Shown here piece after piece: positions 4,008-9,819 of a stretch of 10,728 nucleotides of DNA. The stretch spans positions 1 to 10,728 of the forward strand of contig PXEK01000206.1 in the NCBI GenBank assembly GCA_003564735.1. Direction: 5' to 3'. The notes below the pieces were generated by a model. It had not been told where the DNA came from. It made no database searches and worked only from the letters and a program-made list of their open reading frames with translations. Origin of the DNA: Cryomorphaceae bacterium (GTDB taxonomy: Bacteria; Bacteroidota; Bacteroidia; Flavobacteriales_G; Salibacteraceae). Position numbers and translations under genes: made by a program. Position 1 is the stretch's first letter; each line of letters begins with the position of its first letter.

Positions 4008-4285
4008 ATAATTTAAAACTTTTTCTTTCAATCTTACTTTTGACAACAATGCCGACAGGATGTTCGGAAACTAAAGAAGCCAAGGCTAAAGTGTTAGGAC
4101 TTACTTACAATCCTCTAACAGGGCATGAGTGGTCCGTAAAAGCATGGTATGAGTATCAGGTTGAAGTGCAGAAATTTATTGACACTATTTATTTTTACGA
4201 AAATGATATTATACCAAATGAAGGTAAAGAGTTTACAGTTATTTATGAAGTTGATAACCCGGCAAAAAATCGAATAAAAGACTAA
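4004..4285 (+). CDS. Small putative lipoprotein, GTG start, overlaps toxin stop
   Basis: A 93-residue protein starting at GTG 4004, whose last bases form GTGA with the toxin stop, so it is probably translationally coupled to the toxin cistron. It has a lipoprotein-type signal: short charged N-terminus, hydrophobic core (LFLSILLLTT), then PTGC with Cys20 as the likely lipidated residue. The lipobox is imperfect because Pro is at -3. The mature part resembles small Bacteroidota proteins with the ending G-x-x-F-x-V-x-Y-x-x-x-N-P-x-x-N-R-I, here GKEFTVIYEVDNPAKNRI (about 74-91), seen in proteins of unknown function that face the periplasm. No catalytic residues are evident. If the toxin frameshift is real, translation of this gene may be reduced, since ribosomes stop far upstream. 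Confidence 0.6.
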   Translation: MNNLKLFLSILLLTTMPTGCSETKEAKAKVLGLTYNPLTGHEWSVKAWYEYQVEVQKFIDTIYFYENDIIPNEGKEFTVIYEVDNPAKNRIKD

Positions 4286-4405
4286 GGCATATAGAAACGG
4301 GGCAATACTGTTCAACATAGACATAGTTCATTACGTCTTTCATTTACCGGCTCGGCGTAGCGTACTTCGGCAGGGCTCAGTAACACCTGCTAAGTCGGAG
4401 TTATC

Positions 4406-4420
4406 CCGGCCTCCGGCCGG
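4406..4420. repeat. Inverted repeat CCGGCC-TCC-GGCCGG
   Basis: A perfect 6-bp GC stem with a 3-nt loop. No T-tract follows on either strand at close range, so it reads as a REP-like palindrome rather than a terminator. Confidence 0.7.
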
Positions 4421-4480
4421 AAGAGGGTAAAAAAAGAAAAACCCGAAACAAAAAAACTCAAGAGGAGCGAAACAGAACAG

Positions 4481-4499
4481 CCCGGCGTGGAGCGCCGGG
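4481..4499. repeat. Inverted repeat CCCGGCG-TGGAG-CGCCGGG
   Basis: A perfect 7-bp GC stem with a 5-nt loop, extendable by a G-T and an A-T pair. On the minus strand (direction of the receptor gene) a T-run begins about 20 nt after the stem, too far for a standard intrinsic terminator. Confidence 0.75.
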
Positions 4500-4511
4500 T
4501 TAGGTAGCGAG

Positions 4512-4555
4512 TTGTTTTATAAAATTTAAAACTTCGGCGGAGTGGCATAAAACAA
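4512..4555. repeat. Inverted repeat TTGTTTTAT / ATAAAACAA
   Basis: Perfect 9-bp arms at 4512-4520 and 4547-4555 enclose 26 nt. It lies 58 nt beyond the receptor stop codon and may form a stem-loop in the 3' end of its transcript. Confidence 0.65.
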
Positions 4556-4612
4556 TCCATTTCGGGAATTTGTAAGCAGGTTAGATGAGTCATACTCCTA
4601 TCAAATTTACCC

Positions 4613-6994
4613 CTAAAAAGTAACACGATATTGCAACATGGGGAAAATGCCCAATTGGTAGGTGATGCTCTCGCGGCCGGTTTGCCAATCAAATGTTGCG
4701 GCAAACGGATTTTGGGTATCGGTGACGTTTTGGATGTCAAGAGCCCACTCTTGAGTGAACTTTTTGTAGTTTACTCGATATCCCACGCGAATATCGGTTC
4801 TAAAGTAAGGTCTGAATTGCTCCGTAAACGGATTTTCGGTTTGCAATATGGTTTGGGAGGCGGCTTGCGATGCCTCCAAATCAATTTTGGTGTAGCGTAA
4901 TCCGCCCGCAAATGTCGCCTTGATATCGGCGGTTAGGTATTTTCTGTTGCCGCCGCCGTCTCCCGATAATTGAAATTCCTTACCGCCCACACCGTTTACG
5001 AGATAATTCCCGTTAAAGGCGGTGTTGCGCCATCGGCCGTCAGATCCTTTGTATTTGGAATCAAATACCGATGCATTCAAAATAAAATAGCCTCCTTTGG
5101 CCATTCGCTTTTCAAGTGAAAGGTCAATTCCTAAATTCCGTCCTCTTCCTTCATTCACCAGCGAATCATGAATTTGAGTACCAAATGTGCCGGCGTTTAA
5201 CAGACTGTAAGCCGTGGGTCGCGACTGAACGGGAGCGCGATCAATAAACTGCGCATAAACCTCGGCTTTAAATTGTATGCCTCTCCCCAATTTTTGGTTA
5301 TATCCCGTGACCAGATGCGTACTTCGGGTAAAGTTGAGGTTGTCATTGGTTCTTATGTAGTTTCCGTTATGCGGAGTTTCTCGAAAATACACATTCATTT
5401 GAGCGGTTTGATTGTGAACCCCGGCTCCGAATGTCAGTTTTTTGCCGGTCGAAAATTCCCACTCGGCATTGAGCCGCGGCTCCAATGTAACGGATTCGTT
5501 CAGCGTAAAGAACTGACTGTACAACCCAAAGTTAAATTGCAGGTTGTTTGTGGGTATGTATCTGTAATTTCCATACGCCCTGAGGAGGGAGGTAGTACCC
5601 TCGAAGTCGGATAAGGTTCGGAAGTGTTGCGGTTCTGACCGAAAAACGGAATCTTTTGAATCGGCAAAAAATACGTCTGCCATGATTCCGACTCTGAATT
5701 TGTTTTTTGCGTTGTGTTTGTGATTGACGTAAAAGTGAGCGTTGGTGCGGTGTAGGTTTTCATCGGCGCCGTAGTTGAGCACGGGGTTGCGCTGTTCGGG
5801 TGTGAGTGAATCGCGCCTGACCATATTATGCGAGGTTTGGGCGCTTAATACCAGCTTAGAATAGGTGTTTTGGCTCCAAAAGGAGATTTGCGTGATGCCG
5901 GCCACGGCCATTCTGTTCGCATTGACCAAATCCACATCTCCCCCGGTATAGAAGTCGTCCCCGATCTCCTCGGGCTCAACGCCTGAATTGATAAACTCAA
6001 TGCTGTTTTTCCCCGCCAAACCGAATACGGTGATGTGCCCTAATTTTGATTCGGGAAAATCAAATTTAAAGGATAAATCTTGGTAATACGGCACACCGGT
6101 TCCCGTGCCCACCTCAAGGCCAATATTATCCATTAAGCCCAAAGCCGAGTAGCGGTAATTCATCAGGTAAGAGCTGCCTTTTTTGCGATTGATGGGGCCC
6201 TCGGCGCCCAGCTCGAATCCGTTGAAACCGATTTGACCTAAAAACTCGTGATTTTCATTATTTCCCGATCGCATTTTTAAATCAAACACACCGGCGTTGG
6301 CATTGCCGTACATGGAGGGGAAGGCGCCGGTAAAAAAATCGGAGTTTCGCAGTACGTTGTTGTTGAGCATACTCACCGGGCCGCCCGTAGCCCCGGCACC
6401 GCCGAAGTGATTGGGGTTGAATATATCCACATCTTCAAGTCGCCATGAAATTCCGTTGGGCGAGTTGCCGCGAACCACAATATCGTTTACGGCATCATTG
6501 GCCGTGTTAACGCCGGCAAAATTGCCGGCCATTCGCGCAACATCATTCCGCGCACCGGCAAATCGCATACTTTCTTCAATTGAGAATGAACGTGCACTTA
6601 TGACTGCTGCCTCATTATTGAGTTCCCCTTCATCTGATGCCTTTACTTCAACGGTTTTTAAATCGGTAACACGCTCGGTTAATTCCAAATTCACCACCAG
6701 CTCTTTTCCTGAGGTGAGCTCTAGGTTGGGGAAGGTTTGTTTGGAGTATCCCAAAAAGGTTACTTCCATCATGACCCTGCCCACGGGAACATTTTCTATG
6801 CGGTATTTGCCGTCTAAATCAGTTGATGCTCCTTTAAAGTCGTCACCCTTTTTAACGGCTACATTGGCCCCGGGAATAGGTTGGCGTGTATCCGCATCAA
6901 TGATTTTACCTCGTATTACTCCGGTATATTCTTGAGCTGTTGCGCTTAATGAAAATGTTGCCAAGGCTATAAAAAGTAAAACTTTCCCTTTCAT
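4613..6994 (-). CDS. TonB-dependent outer-membrane receptor
   Basis: A 793-residue outer-membrane receptor. A Sec signal peptide spans residues 1-21 (cleavage near ATAQ). Residues about 25-107 form a carboxypeptidase-regulatory-like Ig domain (GKIIDADTRQPIPGANV, then DGKYRIENVPVG), standard in Bacteroidota receptors. The plug covers about 128-245, including DIVVRGNSPNGISWRLEDVD and the plug-to-barrel hinge SMYGNANAGVFDLKMRSGN. The barrel follows, ending in the aromatic outer-membrane signature LQYRVTF with terminal Phe. Transport would be powered by TonB-ExbBD. No SusD-like lipoprotein, hydrolase or siderophore gene adjoins it, so the ligand cannot be inferred. The neighbour upstream is a LytTR regulator, and the promoter carries a matching repeat pair. 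At 793 residues it is shorter than SusC proteins (about 1000), nearer to siderophore or metal-type receptors. Confidence 0.92.
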   Translation of the reverse strand: MKGKVLLFIALATFSLSATAQEYTGVIRGKIIDADTRQPIPGANVAVKKGDDFKGASTDLDGKYRIENVPVGRVMMEVTFLGYSKQTFPNLELTSGKELVVNLELTERVTDLKTVEVKASDEGELNNEAAVISARSFSIEESMRFAGARNDVARMAGNFAGVNTANDAVNDIVVRGNSPNGISWRLEDVDIFNPNHFGGAGATGGPVSMLNNNVLRNSDFFTGAFPSMYGNANAGVFDLKMRSGNNENHEFLGQIGFNGFELGAEGPINRKKGSSYLMNYRYSALGLMDNIGLEVGTGTGVPYYQDLSFKFDFPESKLGHITVFGLAGKNSIEFINSGVEPEEIGDDFYTGGDVDLVNANRMAVAGITQISFWSQNTYSKLVLSAQTSHNMVRRDSLTPEQRNPVLNYGADENLHRTNAHFYVNHKHNAKNKFRVGIMADVFFADSKDSVFRSEPQHFRTLSDFEGTTSLLRAYGNYRYIPTNNLQFNFGLYSQFFTLNESVTLEPRLNAEWEFSTGKKLTFGAGVHNQTAQMNVYFRETPHNGNYIRTNDNLNFTRSTHLVTGYNQKLGRGIQFKAEVYAQFIDRAPVQSRPTAYSLLNAGTFGTQIHDSLVNEGRGRNLGIDLSLEKRMAKGGYFILNASVFDSKYKGSDGRWRNTAFNGNYLVNGVGGKEFQLSGDGGGNRKYLTADIKATFAGGLRYTKIDLEASQAASQTILQTENPFTEQFRPYFRTDIRVGYRVNYKKFTQEWALDIQNVTDTQNPFAATFDWQTGRESITYQLGIFPMLQYRVTF

Positions 6995-7017: not shown

Positions 7018-7025
7018 CAAAAGAA
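7018..7025 (-). promoter_or_regulatory. Core -7-like element of the receptor promoter
   Basis: The minus strand reads TTCTTTTG, one mismatch from TAnnTTTG, 23 nt before the ATG at 6994. It lies within a hairpin (CTGCGC 7013-7018 and GCGCAG 7028-7033). No -33 TTG is seen, as expected for an activator-dependent promoter. The leader shares AATTTAAAA with that of the sensor operon. Confidence 0.5.
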
Positions 7026-7056
7026 CCGCGCAGTGAAAGGGTTTGAAAGTTTTTTA

Positions 7057-7087
7057 GACAAACGAAGCCGTTTGTTCGACAAACGGC
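7057..7087 (-). promoter_or_regulatory. Candidate LytTR binding site upstream of the receptor gene
   Basis: Read on the minus strand, GCCGTTTGT (7087-7079) and TTCGTTTGT (7066-7058) are direct repeats of 9 bp separated by 12 bp, a 21-bp period; the identical core is CGTTTGTC. Each matches the general LytTR-domain consensus (T/A)(A/C)(C/A)GTTN(A/G)(T/G) at 8 of 9 positions. The site is 63 nt upstream of the receptor ATG. The gene immediately upstream encodes a LytTR regulator. The upstream copy also forms a 9-bp hairpin with a TCG loop (7067-7087). Confidence 0.6.
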
Positions 7088-7124
7088 CGAAAGCCGCTTT
7101 TTAGTTCGGGTACAGGAGCCCGGA
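7088..7124 (-). terminator. Possible weak terminator after the response regulator gene
   Basis: Just past the regulator stop, the minus strand holds two short imperfect stems: TCCGGG/CCCGAA around 7103-7122, and CGGC/GCCG around 7084-7096 running into TTTG. There is no strong T-tract, so transcription may continue into the receptor gene. Confidence 0.25.
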
Positions 7125-7838
7125 TTATTCTCTTTTCCACAGCTTATCGCCCATCACTACTTTTTTAACCACATCTCGGTAGGATTTACTTACCGGGATT
7201 TTTTTGTCCTGTATATGCAACAGCCAACCCTCAACAGCCTCCACCTCATCGGGGTTTACAATGTAAGAACGATGAACCCGCAAAAAACCTCTTTCGCCCA
7301 GTTGTTCTTCGGCCTCTTTCATGGTCATGTACACCATCCTGCGCTTTTGTCGGGTATGGATAAAAATATAATCCTTCACTCCCTCTACACACAAAATGTC
7401 ACTGTATTTTATTTTGACAAAAATCCCGTTTTCTTTGATGTAAAAAGAATCATCAGCCGTGCTTCCCGCCGATAGTTTTTCCAATTTCAGTTGGGCTTTT
7501 TCAGCGGCTTTTAAAAACCGTAACAAAGAAATAGGCTTGAGTAAATAATCCACGCAATCCAGTTCAAAACCGTCCAAGGCAAACTCACGGTGCGCGGTGG
7601 TGAAAATCACTTCGGGCGGATTTTTCAACTCCTTTAAGAATTCTACCCCGCTGATTTTGGGCATATTAATATCCAAAAACATTAAATCGGGATTCACTTC
7701 CTTCAGCAACTTAGCCGCTTGAATCGCGTTGCGCGCCGATCCTACAAACTCCAAAAAATCGGTATCATCTATATAATCTTTTAGTCCCTCAACAGCAGGG
7801 GGTTCGTCATCAACTACAATGCAGCGCAACTTTTTCAT
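7125..7838 (-). CDS. LytTR-family response regulator
   Basis: A 237-residue two-component regulator. The receiver domain (1-120) has the acidic pair D10-D11, the phosphoacceptor D56 in FLDINMP, T80/T81, and the conserved K101 in LLKPIS. The LytTR DNA-binding domain (about 132-233) shows the usual strand pattern with FLRVHRSYIVN at 185-195. Such regulators bind two direct repeats about 21 bp apart and usually activate transcription. The start codon overlaps the kinase stop in ATGA, so the two are coupled and almost certainly a cognate pair. Repeat pairs matching this geometry lie upstream of the receptor gene and of the sensor operon, pointing to a small regulon with autoregulation. All key phosphorylation residues are present. 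Confidence 0.95.
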   Translation of the reverse strand: MKKLRCIVVDDEPPAVEGLKDYIDDTDFLEFVGSARNAIQAAKLLKEVNPDLMFLDINMPKISGVEFLKELKNPPEVIFTTAHREFALDGFELDCVDYLLKPISLLRFLKAAEKAQLKLEKLSAGSTADDSFYIKENGIFVKIKYSDILCVEGVKDYIFIHTRQKRRMVYMTMKEAEEQLGERGFLRVHRSYIVNPDEVEAVEGWLLHIQDKKIPVSKSYRDVVKKVVMGDKLWKRE

Positions 7839-8881
7839 TTTACGGGAATTTTCATTGTTACTCGAAACTTCGATTTAGTATCTTCAATATTTAATTCATG
7901 GTCAGAACCGTAAATCAACTGCAATCGCTCCCTCAAGTTACTGAGTCCCAATCCGCCGTTTTCGTCTTCTTTGGGCATAGGTTTATAATTATTTTCACAA
8001 CTGAACACCACTCGGTCGTCCTTCACTTGAACGGATGTGCGGATATAATATTCATCCATTCCGGATTTCAATCCGTATTTAAACGCATTTTCAATAACCG
8101 GCCCGAATAATCCGGGCGGAATACTCACATTGTGTTCCGCCTCGAATGAAGACGTCACAAAAACTGAATTTCCCTGCCGGCTTTTTTCAATTTCAATATA
8201 ATCTCTCAGGTATTCTACCTCCTCATCCAGGGGGATGAACTCTTTTTGGCTCTGATAGAGACGATAACTTAGCAGTTTAGAAAAGCGCAAAATGCTTTCA
8301 CGCGTTTTTTCCGGTTTTTTGCCCGATTCAACGTAAATGCCGTTAAGTGTATTGAATAAGAAGTGAGGTTCCACTTGGTTTTTAAGCATTTCCAACTCGG
8401 TTCGCGTATTTTGTTCGCGCAATTTTGACTCCCTCGTGATCGATTCCTTCCACAACTCAAAGCTGTTTTTGTATTCCATAATTCCCGTTACCACAATGCT
8501 AATGACCACGGCAAGGAGAATATTAGCGAAATAATCGGCAGGAACAACCTCAACTTGAGACGTTGCAAAATAGCGCCAGAGCCAGGTAAAACAAAACATA
8601 ATCACCGCGGCAGATAAGGTGACGGAGCTCAACAAAAAGGTAATACGCACCGCAAATCTATTTTCGAACAATCGGTTATTGTTGCGTACATATTGGACAA
8701 TCATCGTGTTGGAAAGTGTTAGAATAAAAGTGATGCTCACCGTGAAGGCCACTACATGACCAAAAGGAATTTCCTCATCGGTACTCGCTTGAAAAAAGGC
8801 GTTATAAAGTAAATTAAACCCTATTGGGATTAGCGTAACTACCGCAGTTAATATCAATATGTTTTTCCAAAAACCTTTCAC
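7835..8881 (-). CDS. LytS-type sensor histidine kinase
   Basis: A membrane histidine kinase of the His_kinase (PF06580) class. With the GTG start chosen here it has 348 residues. Four membrane helices lie at about 6-28, 42-64, 78-100 and 116-135, with no large periplasmic sensor domain. A linker coil (about 140-165) leads to the phosphoacceptor H173 in NQVEPHFLFNTLN. The ATPase part has the N box (ENAFKYG, about 264-270) and the G box (GGLGLSNLRERL, about 309-320). The frame is open to an ATG at 8995, but that start would overlap the upstream gene by 82 nt, and the extra 38 residues (Cys-rich, then basic) look like an out-of-frame reading of that gene. The GTG at 8881 lies 32 nt after the upstream stop and follows AAAGAGAAAAAGA, a good purine-rich region. 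It probably senses a membrane signal, possibly through the co-transcribed seven-helix protein. Confidence 0.9.
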   Translation of the reverse strand: MKGFWKNILILTAVVTLIPIGFNLLYNAFFQASTDEEIPFGHVVAFTVSITFILTLSNTMIVQYVRNNNRLFENRFAVRITFLLSSVTLSAAVIMFCFTWLWRYFATSQVEVVPADYFANILLAVVISIVVTGIMEYKNSFELWKESITRESKLREQNTRTELEMLKNQVEPHFLFNTLNGIYVESGKKPEKTRESILRFSKLLSYRLYQSQKEFIPLDEEVEYLRDYIEIEKSRQGNSVFVTSSFEAEHNVSIPPGLFGPVIENAFKYGLKSGMDEYYIRTSVQVKDDRVVFSCENNYKPMPKEDENGGLGLSNLRERLQLIYGSDHELNIEDTKSKFRVTMKIPVK

Positions 8882-8913
8882 TCTTTTTCTCTTTAAACGG
8901 GTTAAAGCGCGAA

Positions 8914-9570
8914 TTAAAGCTTTGATATTTTTGCCTCTTGATTTCGTGACCAATATACGGCAAAAGGTACAAATGCAGCAGTGGGTAAAAGCCAAATGAT
9001 AAATTCCGGCACAAAACCGGGGAAATGAGCTATGTTTACTACCAAAAAAGCGGTAAATACCGAAATAAAAGAACCGGTCATTCTATAAATATGCTGTTTA
9101 CGCGCCACACTTGTAAACTTGCGTTTTTTGAAAAGTACGAGTAAATCGACTCTCACGAAGAGTAAAGAAATCAAACCAAAGATGAAGTGCACCACTCCGA
9201 AAGATTTCCCGCCGATGAAGTAGCCTAATCCGTATCCTGTGGTGAACAGTCCAAAAGCCGCCGTTATGAAGATGAGTGCTACCCCGGCGGAGTTGAGGTC
9301 TTTATTTTTGTGGTAGCTCATTCCCGAATAAGCCATGTAACATGTAAAAATACCCACCCACGTTAAAAACCAATTGCCGTTATTGACAGATAACACAATG
9401 CCCAAAACCGAAGAAAGAATAGCCGACCACATGAAAAACTCACCTACAATCGTGTGTCGTTTACCTCTTTTAGCGGTTACCATATTCAAAAAACCTGATA
9501 GCAGTGCAAGACTTCCCACCGCTATATGCAGGACTAATAATAAGAGTATTAAAAATTCGATCGCTTCCAT
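8914..9570 (-). CDS. DUF2306-like seven-helix membrane protein
   Basis: A 218-residue integral membrane protein with about seven hydrophobic segments and short loops. Two histidine motifs recur in similar settings: KRHTIVGEFFMWSAI near residue 39 and RKQHIYRMTGSFISVFTAF near 160, with additional helix histidines near 15 and 128. This suggests an internal duplication and resembles DUF2306-type membrane proteins (a cytochrome-b561-like arrangement), whose function is not established. The start at 9570 begins the hydrophobic helix; an in-frame ATG nine codons upstream (9597) overlaps the TTTG promoter core and is less likely. It is the first gene of an operon with the kinase (32-nt gap to the GTG) and regulator, so a role as signal sensor or accessory subunit is plausible but inferred only from position. 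Confidence 0.7.
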   Translation of the reverse strand: MEAIEFLILLLLVLHIAVGSLALLSGFLNMVTAKRGKRHTIVGEFFMWSAILSSVLGIVLSVNNGNWFLTWVGIFTCYMAYSGMSYHKNKDLNSAGVALIFITAAFGLFTTGYGLGYFIGGKSFGVVHFIFGLISLLFVRVDLLVLFKKRKFTSVARKQHIYRMTGSFISVFTAFLVVNIAHFPGFVPEFIIWLLPTAAFVPFAVYWSRNQEAKISKL

Positions 9571-9594
9571 AATTTTGAGTTTTAAATTTGAAAG

Positions 9595-9602
9595 CAAATG
9601 AC
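9595..9602 (-). promoter_or_regulatory. Core -7-like element of the sensor operon promoter
   Basis: The minus strand reads GTCATTTG, keeping TTTG but not the TA of TAnnTTTG, 24 nt before the ATG at 9570. There is no -33 TTG. Position and leader sequence match the receptor promoter closely. Confidence 0.45.
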
Positions 9603-9633
9603 CTAATAATAATATCGGCTTTAAAATATATTC

Positions 9634-9661
9634 GACGAGTGCGCGGGTTTTTTAGACGAAT
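9634..9661 (-). promoter_or_regulatory. Candidate LytTR binding site upstream of the sensor operon
   Basis: Direct repeats ATTCGTC (9661-9655) and ACTCGTC (9640-9634) on the minus strand are spaced by exactly 21 bp. The inner repeat begins 64 nt before the ATG at 9570 and 36 nt before TTTG, the same geometry as at the receptor promoter. The upstream copy (TCCATTCGT) matches the LytTR consensus at 8 of 9 positions; the inner copy is weak. Flanking GTCTAAAAAAC is also shared with the receptor site. Confidence 0.55.
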
Positions 9662-9683: not shown

Positions 9684-9733
9684 AAAAACAGAGTGAGAAT
9701 CATCGCTGTCGCTCTCATTCTCACTCTGTTTTT
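9684..9733 (-). terminator. Strong intrinsic terminator after tRNA-Leu
   Basis: ACAGAGTGAGAAT (9688-9700) pairs perfectly with ATTCTCACTCTGT (9717-9729), extended by an A/T run to about 17 bp, around a 16-nt loop. On the minus strand the stem runs into seven Ts (9688-9682), ending tRNA-Leu transcription 2 nt past the tRNA. A T-run on the plus side makes it potentially bidirectional. Confidence 0.88.
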
Positions 9734-9734
9734 G

Positions 9735-9819
9735 TACCCGGGGCGGGACTTGAACCCGCACGGCCACAATGGCCACAGGATTTTAAGTCCTGCGTGTCTA
9801 CCAATTCCACCACCCGGGC
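9735..9819 (-). tRNA. tRNA-Leu (anticodon UAA)
   Basis: An 85-nt tRNA on the minus strand. The acceptor stem GCCCGGG pairs with CCCGGGT (G1-U72), discriminator A73. The D-arm contains AATTGGTAGACAC, and the anticodon stem CAGGA/TCCTG encloses the TAA anticodon. The long variable arm GGCC-ATTGT-GGCC is typical of class II leucine tRNA, and the T-arm has GGTTCAAGTCC. CCA is not encoded. It is flanked by a terminator on each side and a hairpin directly at its 5' end. Confidence 0.96.

Follow-up and report, generated by a model that had tools for sequence, protein, structure and literature searches.

Two-component systems that pair a LytS-like histidine kinase with a receiver-LytTR response regulator, among them YpdAB, BtsSR/YehUT, and AgrCA, are associated with direct repeats of 9–11 nt, 11–13 nt apart, upstream of the target promoter (PMC4847170, PMC4227749); as PMC4847170 describes these sites, they follow no common consensus. 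In the LytTR Regulatory Systems (LRS), direct repeats with a 12-bp gap (a period of 21) stand next to the operon promoter, and the LRS-like operons of Bacteroides carry 11-bp repeats with an 11-bp gap and a period of 22 (PMC6193735). According to the same source, the LRS-like repeats of B. thetaiotaomicron stand before a TATCTTTG box, repeats just upstream of a promoter go with positive autoregulation, and autoregulation is demonstrated for HdrRM and presumed for the others. The present analysis concerns a 10,728-nt stretch of contig PXEK01000206.1 of a Cryomorphaceae bacterium (assembly GCA_003564735.1), hereafter the window, in which genes for a DUF2306-like membrane protein, a LytS-type kinase, and a LytTR regulator form an operon, with the gene for a TonB-dependent transporter (the receptor) behind it. 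Both promoters bear the same pair of repeats at the same distance from the core, and it is probable (roughly 0.8), judging from the sequence comparisons below, that the encoded regulator binds both and activates the receptor gene together with its own operon as a two-promoter regulon.

The window kinase and regulator have the domains that define a LytS/LytTR two-component system. The best NCBIfam match of the regulator is BtsR, at 129.5 against a cut-off of 246, and the protein is therefore not classed as a BtsR orthologue. The half-site, GTC(G/T)AA, differs from the GGCATTTCAT of YpdB reported in PMC4847170, and, unlike in the known LytS/LytTR systems, the operon includes a DUF2306-like membrane protein and the target would be the gene of an outer-membrane TonB-dependent transporter. 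In an LRS, the partner of the LytTR regulator is an inhibitory membrane protein, whereas the window encodes a histidine kinase and a regulator with a receiver domain; also unlike an LRS, a second and separable promoter, that of the receptor, shares the site. Signalling of the FecIRA type makes a TonB-dependent transporter's expression depend on a trans-envelope signal, and in this respect the proposed circuit would be similar. However, there is no extracytoplasmic function (ECF) sigma factor or FecR-like gene in the window operon (no search for ECF genes was made elsewhere in the genome), and no STN domain was matched on the transporter, whose N-terminal domain is CarboxypepD_reg. An autoregulated LytTR two-component system is of a known kind. 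In the literature searched, neither this particular circuit nor a link from LytTR systems to this TonB-dependent transporter family came up: judged mainly by titles and abstracts, no LytTR system controlling such a transporter in Bacteroidota appeared there.

Layout of the two promoters and its conservation

Both promoters are read on the minus strand. At the receptor promoter, an outer half-site GTCGAA (7075..7080) is followed by an inner half-site GTCTAA (7054..7059), the two lying in 16-nt repeat copies at 7070–7085 and 7049–7064, and then by a TTTG core (7018..7021) with the -7 octamer TTCTTTTG. At the operon promoter, the outer half-site is GTCTAA (9652..9657) and the inner is GTCGAA (9631..9636), followed by a TTTG core (9595..9598) with the -7 octamer GTCATTTG. 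A first-pass annotation had located GAC trinucleotides at plus-strand positions 7057, 7078, 9634, and 9655 and TTTG cores at 7018–7021 and 9595–9598; all four trinucleotides are present, as are the cores in the form of plus-strand CAAA. The 21-bp period that it reported recurs at both promoters, and the equal distance from inner repeat to TTTG, which it counted as 36 nt, is 38 nt from start to start. From the inner G to the ATG there are 65 nt at the receptor and 66 nt at the operon. Both leaders hold AATTTAAAA, each site has one GTCTAAAAAAC and one GTCGAA copy, and neither promoter has a -33 TTG (none occurs 15–25 nt upstream of the -7 octamer), all as previously described. Both octamers are imperfect and without the TA. 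Placing TTTG at -8 to -5, following the -7 box position given in PMC9723704, would put the inner G near -46.

The same layout is kept in a congener, G002, in which the DUF2306–kinase–regulator genes are ordered as in the window and are 54%, 62%, and 69% identical to it, respectively. No receptor gene stands behind this operon; the receptor orthologue is on a different contig and is approximately 80% identical over the part found there. Comparison of upstream regions in relatives, which had been put forward as a check, revealed that G002 retains the pair, with the 21 and 38 spacings, before the operon and before the receptor gene. The presence of the pair at both genes, though these lie apart, makes it very likely that the regulator controls both itself and the transporter. 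Across the six comparisons of the four window and G002 promoters, the half-site segments agree at 9–13 of 15–16 letters; agreement is 0–2 of 5 in the intervening 5-nt stretch and 7–14 of 24 between the inner half-site and the core.

The third species is Flavobacteriales MAG28 (locus L114), with a regulator 56% and a receptor 58% identical to those of the window, where the receptor gene lies upstream of orf166, histidine kinase, and response regulator genes on one strand. Its receptor promoter has GTATAC twice, 21 bp apart and 38 nt before TTTG, so that both half-sites differ jointly from those of the window. No other exact pair of this kind occurs in the MAG28 genome, and allowing two mismatches adds one more (controls 1 and 1). 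The 21 and 38 spacings are therefore identical in all five promoters compared (operon and receptor in the window, operon and receptor in G002, and receptor in MAG28, the orf166–kinase–regulator genes of MAG28 lying outside this set): the period falls within the 21–22 described for LytTR sites in PMC4847170, and the inner G always lies 38 nt before TTTG, just upstream of the core promoter. In another congener, G001, the best matches to the regulator and the receptor are 34% and 28% identical, respectively, and neither is a close orthologue.

Two further repeats were seen at these loci. The outer copy at the window receptor promoter sits within a perfect 9-bp inverted repeat (7067–7075/7079–7087, with a 3-nt loop), which also scores as terminator-like, was not observed in the G002 sites, and may help to end the regulator transcript. 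Between the receptor gene and orf166 in L114 (4107–4348), two copies of a AATAGTGTCTGTC...AGTCC stretch lie approximately 150 nt apart and are perhaps the remains of a mobile element.

Rarity of the layout and the wider LytTR family

A GTC(G/T)AA pair at spacing 21 arose in 0 of 4000 dinucleotide shuffles for each of the four 110-nt upstream regions (two from the window, two from G002), and a looser rule (a 10-mer pair at 21 with at least 9 matches) was satisfied in 8, 53, 9, and 26 of 4000 shuffles. In the whole window assembly (G000; 2.29 Mb in 406 contigs, 83% complete), the short pair—defined by a gap of 12–14 and a pyrimidine preceding the inner GTC—occurs twice, both times at the window promoters. 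On its own, this short pair was not used as evidence: it was found in 33 of 60 genomes scanned, and the 13 matches inspected beyond the two G002 promoters comprise eight inside open reading frames (ORFs) and five within or bordering intergenic stretches (L088, L093, L097, L098, and L099). Adding TTTG at the fixed distance lowers the expectation in G000, under window base composition, to about 0.007. The full pattern gave five matches in 42 genomes of the order, namely both promoters of the window, both of G002, and one match within an ORF of G029, with none in the controls.

A scan for further regulon members with two mismatches allowed gave seven matches in G000 and five in G002 (controls 14 and 9). 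Eight of these are additional to the four promoters, and six of the eight lie within ORFs, as placed partly by eye. One of the others, in G002 (C20:8068), straddles the beginning of an opposite-strand aconitase ORF; the last, intergenic on C108 of G002 before an antiporter gene, has TTTT in place of the core TTTG, and its inner GTC is only about 34 nt away from the predicted start. The genome scan suggested by the first-pass annotation thus found the full layout at no other promoter of either genome, and the regulon in this lineage would appear to consist essentially of these two promoters, as read from an assembly that is 83% complete.

The annotation had also stated that 21-bp repeats are a known geometry of LytTR sites, which agrees with PMC4847170 and PMC6193735 and is borne out by a peak at this spacing upstream of homologous regulators. 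Near-identical 10-mers at spacing 21 occur in 15 of 86 upstream regions of regulator homologues, against a resampled mean of 1.32 (maximum 5) and, for the other 24 spacings in the same regions, a mean of 1.33 (maximum 4). These regions are not independent, since several come from one family and some loci count twice (L031 was removed as a duplicate of L113); 17 of the 86 belong to regulator genes without a joined kinase gene, as assigned by rule, and some of the 15 matches resemble simple repeats, such as the TTTGCG runs in L129 and L186. A motif-directed count likewise peaks at 21, with 9 of 89 including the window and G002 and no more than two at any other spacing, though some of the nine look fortuitous. 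Half-sites change in pairs here too, with TGACGA twice before the kinase gene of G054 and TGATGA twice before that of G249. In two Roseivirga loci (L116 and L183), the kinase–regulator pair is preceded in the operon by an 807-amino-acid protein that is, by eye, ABC permease-like and would be a further membrane partner for regulators of this class.

The receptor family was surveyed as well. A LytTR gene lies within 4.5 kb of 15 of 64 receptor ORFs, mostly those of closer homologues. Four of these entries, namely the window, L032, L114, and L208, did not enter the set blindly, having been fetched via the regulator or because the adjacency had already been seen, and a weak LytTR match (L241, 30 bits) was kept in the non-adjacent group. 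Seven of the 15 are operons with a receiver–histidine kinase–response regulator (REC-HK-RR) arrangement (in G004, G005, G012, G014, G015, G019, and G035), and the regulators of these are just 22%–26% identical to that of the window, which marks them as another LytTR subfamily. A spacing of 21 bp was best or co-best in 9 of 16 LytTR-linked receptors versus 4 of 48 others (p 0.00018), where the 16 include the non-adjacent G002 receptor, for which the rule chose a pair other than the GTC pair. Removing the G002 receptor gives 8/15 versus 4/48 (p 0.0005), moving it among the others gives 8/15 versus 5/49 (p 0.001), and removing the window as well gives 7/14 versus 5/49 (p 0.003). With anchors set by eye, five repeats in the seven REC-HK-RR operons resemble ACAGTTCAGT (L199, L201, L203, L205, and L207), and TTTG follows 45–47 nt past the anchor in six of the seven. 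The ACAGTTCAGT-like repeats resemble the textbook LytTR consensus.

At L193 in G015, a receptor gene (4113–6650; 48% identical) is preceded by a 21-bp TCCGGTT pair with TTTG 47 nt on; no LytTR gene was found nearby, and this gene may be a LytTR target unlinked to its regulator. The idea that a LytTR gene alongside suffices to predict a site was rejected: the receptors of G054 (L032) and G249 (L268) stand next to regulator genes and have no 21-bp pair. The promoters of these two have TTGAT-N4-ATCAA palindromes, which resemble FNR boxes, in place of LytTR repeats, and two genes judged Crp/FNR-like by eye follow immediately downstream of the receptor gene. In these genomes, control of the receptor may have passed to a different regulator.

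Genes of the window

All four genes are on the minus strand. The DUF2306-like membrane protein (8914..9570; 218 amino acids) has approximately 6–7 hydrophobic segments and scores 25.1 against DUF2306 (PF10067), or 28.9 for the G002 orthologue, below the gathering cut-off of 31.6; from its sequence it is a distant DUF2306 relative at best. With a score below the cut-off, the link between a fungal DUF2306 protein and an epoxidation (PMC12895699) says nothing about the window protein. The LytS-type kinase (7835..8881), whose GTG start was set from the G002 orthologue, has about four hydrophobic segments, a His_kinase domain (PF06580; 82.8 bits, cut-off 25.2) with the phospho-acceptor histidine in a PHFLFN box, and a weak HATPase_c match (18.2 against the Pfam cut-off of 26.4). 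The response regulator (7125..7838; 237 amino acids), the proposed binder of both sites, consists of a receiver domain (Response_reg, 74.2 bits), with the aspartate present in an FLDI motif, and a LytTR DNA-binding domain (77.5 bits), both above their cut-offs.

The receptor gene (4613..6994; 793 amino acids) follows the regulator gene after a gap of 130 nt. Pfam finds CarboxypepD_reg at the N terminus of the receptor and scores Plug below its cut-off (13.6 against 23.9), which the homologue L205 just exceeds at 24.0. The 28-row AlphaFold model has a predicted local distance difference test (pLDDT) value of 81.0 and a predicted template modelling (pTM) score of 0.81, and the best 50 PDB matches listed for it are TonB-dependent transporters or receptors (PqqU, PfeA, BtuB, and others). 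On this model, the receptor has the predicted plug and beta-barrel of a TonB-dependent transporter. At the other end of the locus, a tRNA-Leu(TAA) gene (9734–9819, minus strand) is separated from the operon promoter by a strong hairpin (9684–9733) with perfect 17-bp arms, which probably insulates the operon from the tRNA transcript.

The proposed circuit and its alternatives

In the proposed circuit, the membrane kinase would phosphorylate the regulator, perhaps under modulation by the DUF2306-like protein. Two regulator protomers would then bind head to tail on one face of the DNA, just upstream of the core promoter, and recruit RNA polymerase to promoters that are weak in lacking a -33 TTG and having an imperfect -7 octamer. 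More transcription of the DUF2306–kinase–regulator operon would constitute positive feedback and more transcription of the transporter gene would constitute receptor induction, with the receptor or its cargo possibly acting as the signal. That the regulator activates its own operon and the receptor was the inference of the first-pass annotation; the comparative tests support it, and from them we infer the binding, the activation, and the dependence of the receptor gene.

Several observations weigh against this circuit. The half-site GTC(G/T)AA is unlike textbook LytTR repeats, the operon half-sites match at just 8 of 10 positions, and the short pair is by itself not rare, since its reversed control occurs four times in G000 against its own two. 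The orthologue group was found in just three genomes (G000, G002, and MAG28); within it, the G002 operon promoter has a candidate -33 TTG, 20 nt before the -7 octamer, and no repeat was detected directly upstream of orf166–kinase–regulator in MAG28, where autoregulation would consequently need read-through from the receptor promoter. More widely, 71 of the 86 regulator upstream regions show no 21-bp pair at the threshold used, and the kinase-gene pairs of G054 and G249 have no TTTG downstream. The receptors of these two genomes adjoin regulator genes and have promoters without a 21-bp pair (by the rule in G054, by eye in G249), and, by the spacing rule, spacings other than 21 come out best for L032, L195, L199, L203, L208, L246, and the second L209 receptor, which counts against the receptor pattern.

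The alternative closest to the proposed circuit retains the LytTR regulator as the binding protein but makes it a repressor, acting in negative feedback or with repression lifted by phosphorylation. Site position alone leaves the sign of regulation unfixed; the inner repeat, however, stands clear of the core at its 38-nt distance from TTTG, the window core promoters are weak by consensus, and known LytTR sites so placed activate, as for AgrA at about -60 (PMC4227749) and HdrR (PMC6193735). Repression is, on balance, unlikely. Somewhat less likely again is co-regulation of both promoters by a different DNA-binding protein encoded elsewhere, with the LytTR regulator merely a neighbour. The perfect 9-bp inverted repeat at the receptor outer copy could suit the operator of a dimeric repressor, but neither the G002 sites nor the operon site shows it. 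Moreover, the regions upstream of homologous LytTR regulators in this phylum are enriched in direct repeats with exactly the 21-bp period. G000, G002, and MAG28 each have the sites, the regulator, and the receptor, and G001 lacks close orthologues of both proteins.

Chance in AT-rich leaders, or recent copying of a promoter segment, is very improbable. Controls put the expectation of the short pair alone at about 1–2 per genome, but the shuffles of all four promoters gave no GTC(G/T)AA pair at 21, and the layout persists in G002, a congener with a regulator 69% identical to that of the window. A fresh copy would not be expected to have half-sites that agree better than the spacer or the core stretch, and the order of GTCTAA and GTCGAA is swapped between the two window promoters. 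Activation of both promoters by the encoded LytTR regulator remains the preferred reading.

More speculatively, and as a possibility rather than an expectation, a Bacteroidota family of TonB-dependent transporters may have been paired repeatedly with different autoregulated LytTR systems, through the REC-HK-RR subfamily in some lineages and through twin separate promoters here. The 21-bp pair and TTTG geometry would be kept as regulator and half-sites change, and the transporter or its cargo may signal via the kinase and a partner membrane protein, a LytTR route of surface sensing distinct from those of FecIRA type and SusR type.

The window regulator gave 10 to 50 matches in 54 of 60 genomes, some of which may not carry LytTR. 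Such regulators are numerous in Bacteroidota, and in the literature searched hardly any has a described target in the phylum. A site rule consisting of a 21-bp pair, a fixed distance to TTTG, and co-diverging half-sites would pair regulators with their targets from sequence. The LytTR system and transporter gene described here would form a small, concrete circuit open to testing, and the association of the transporter family with LytTR regulators suggests a more general control of surface uptake.

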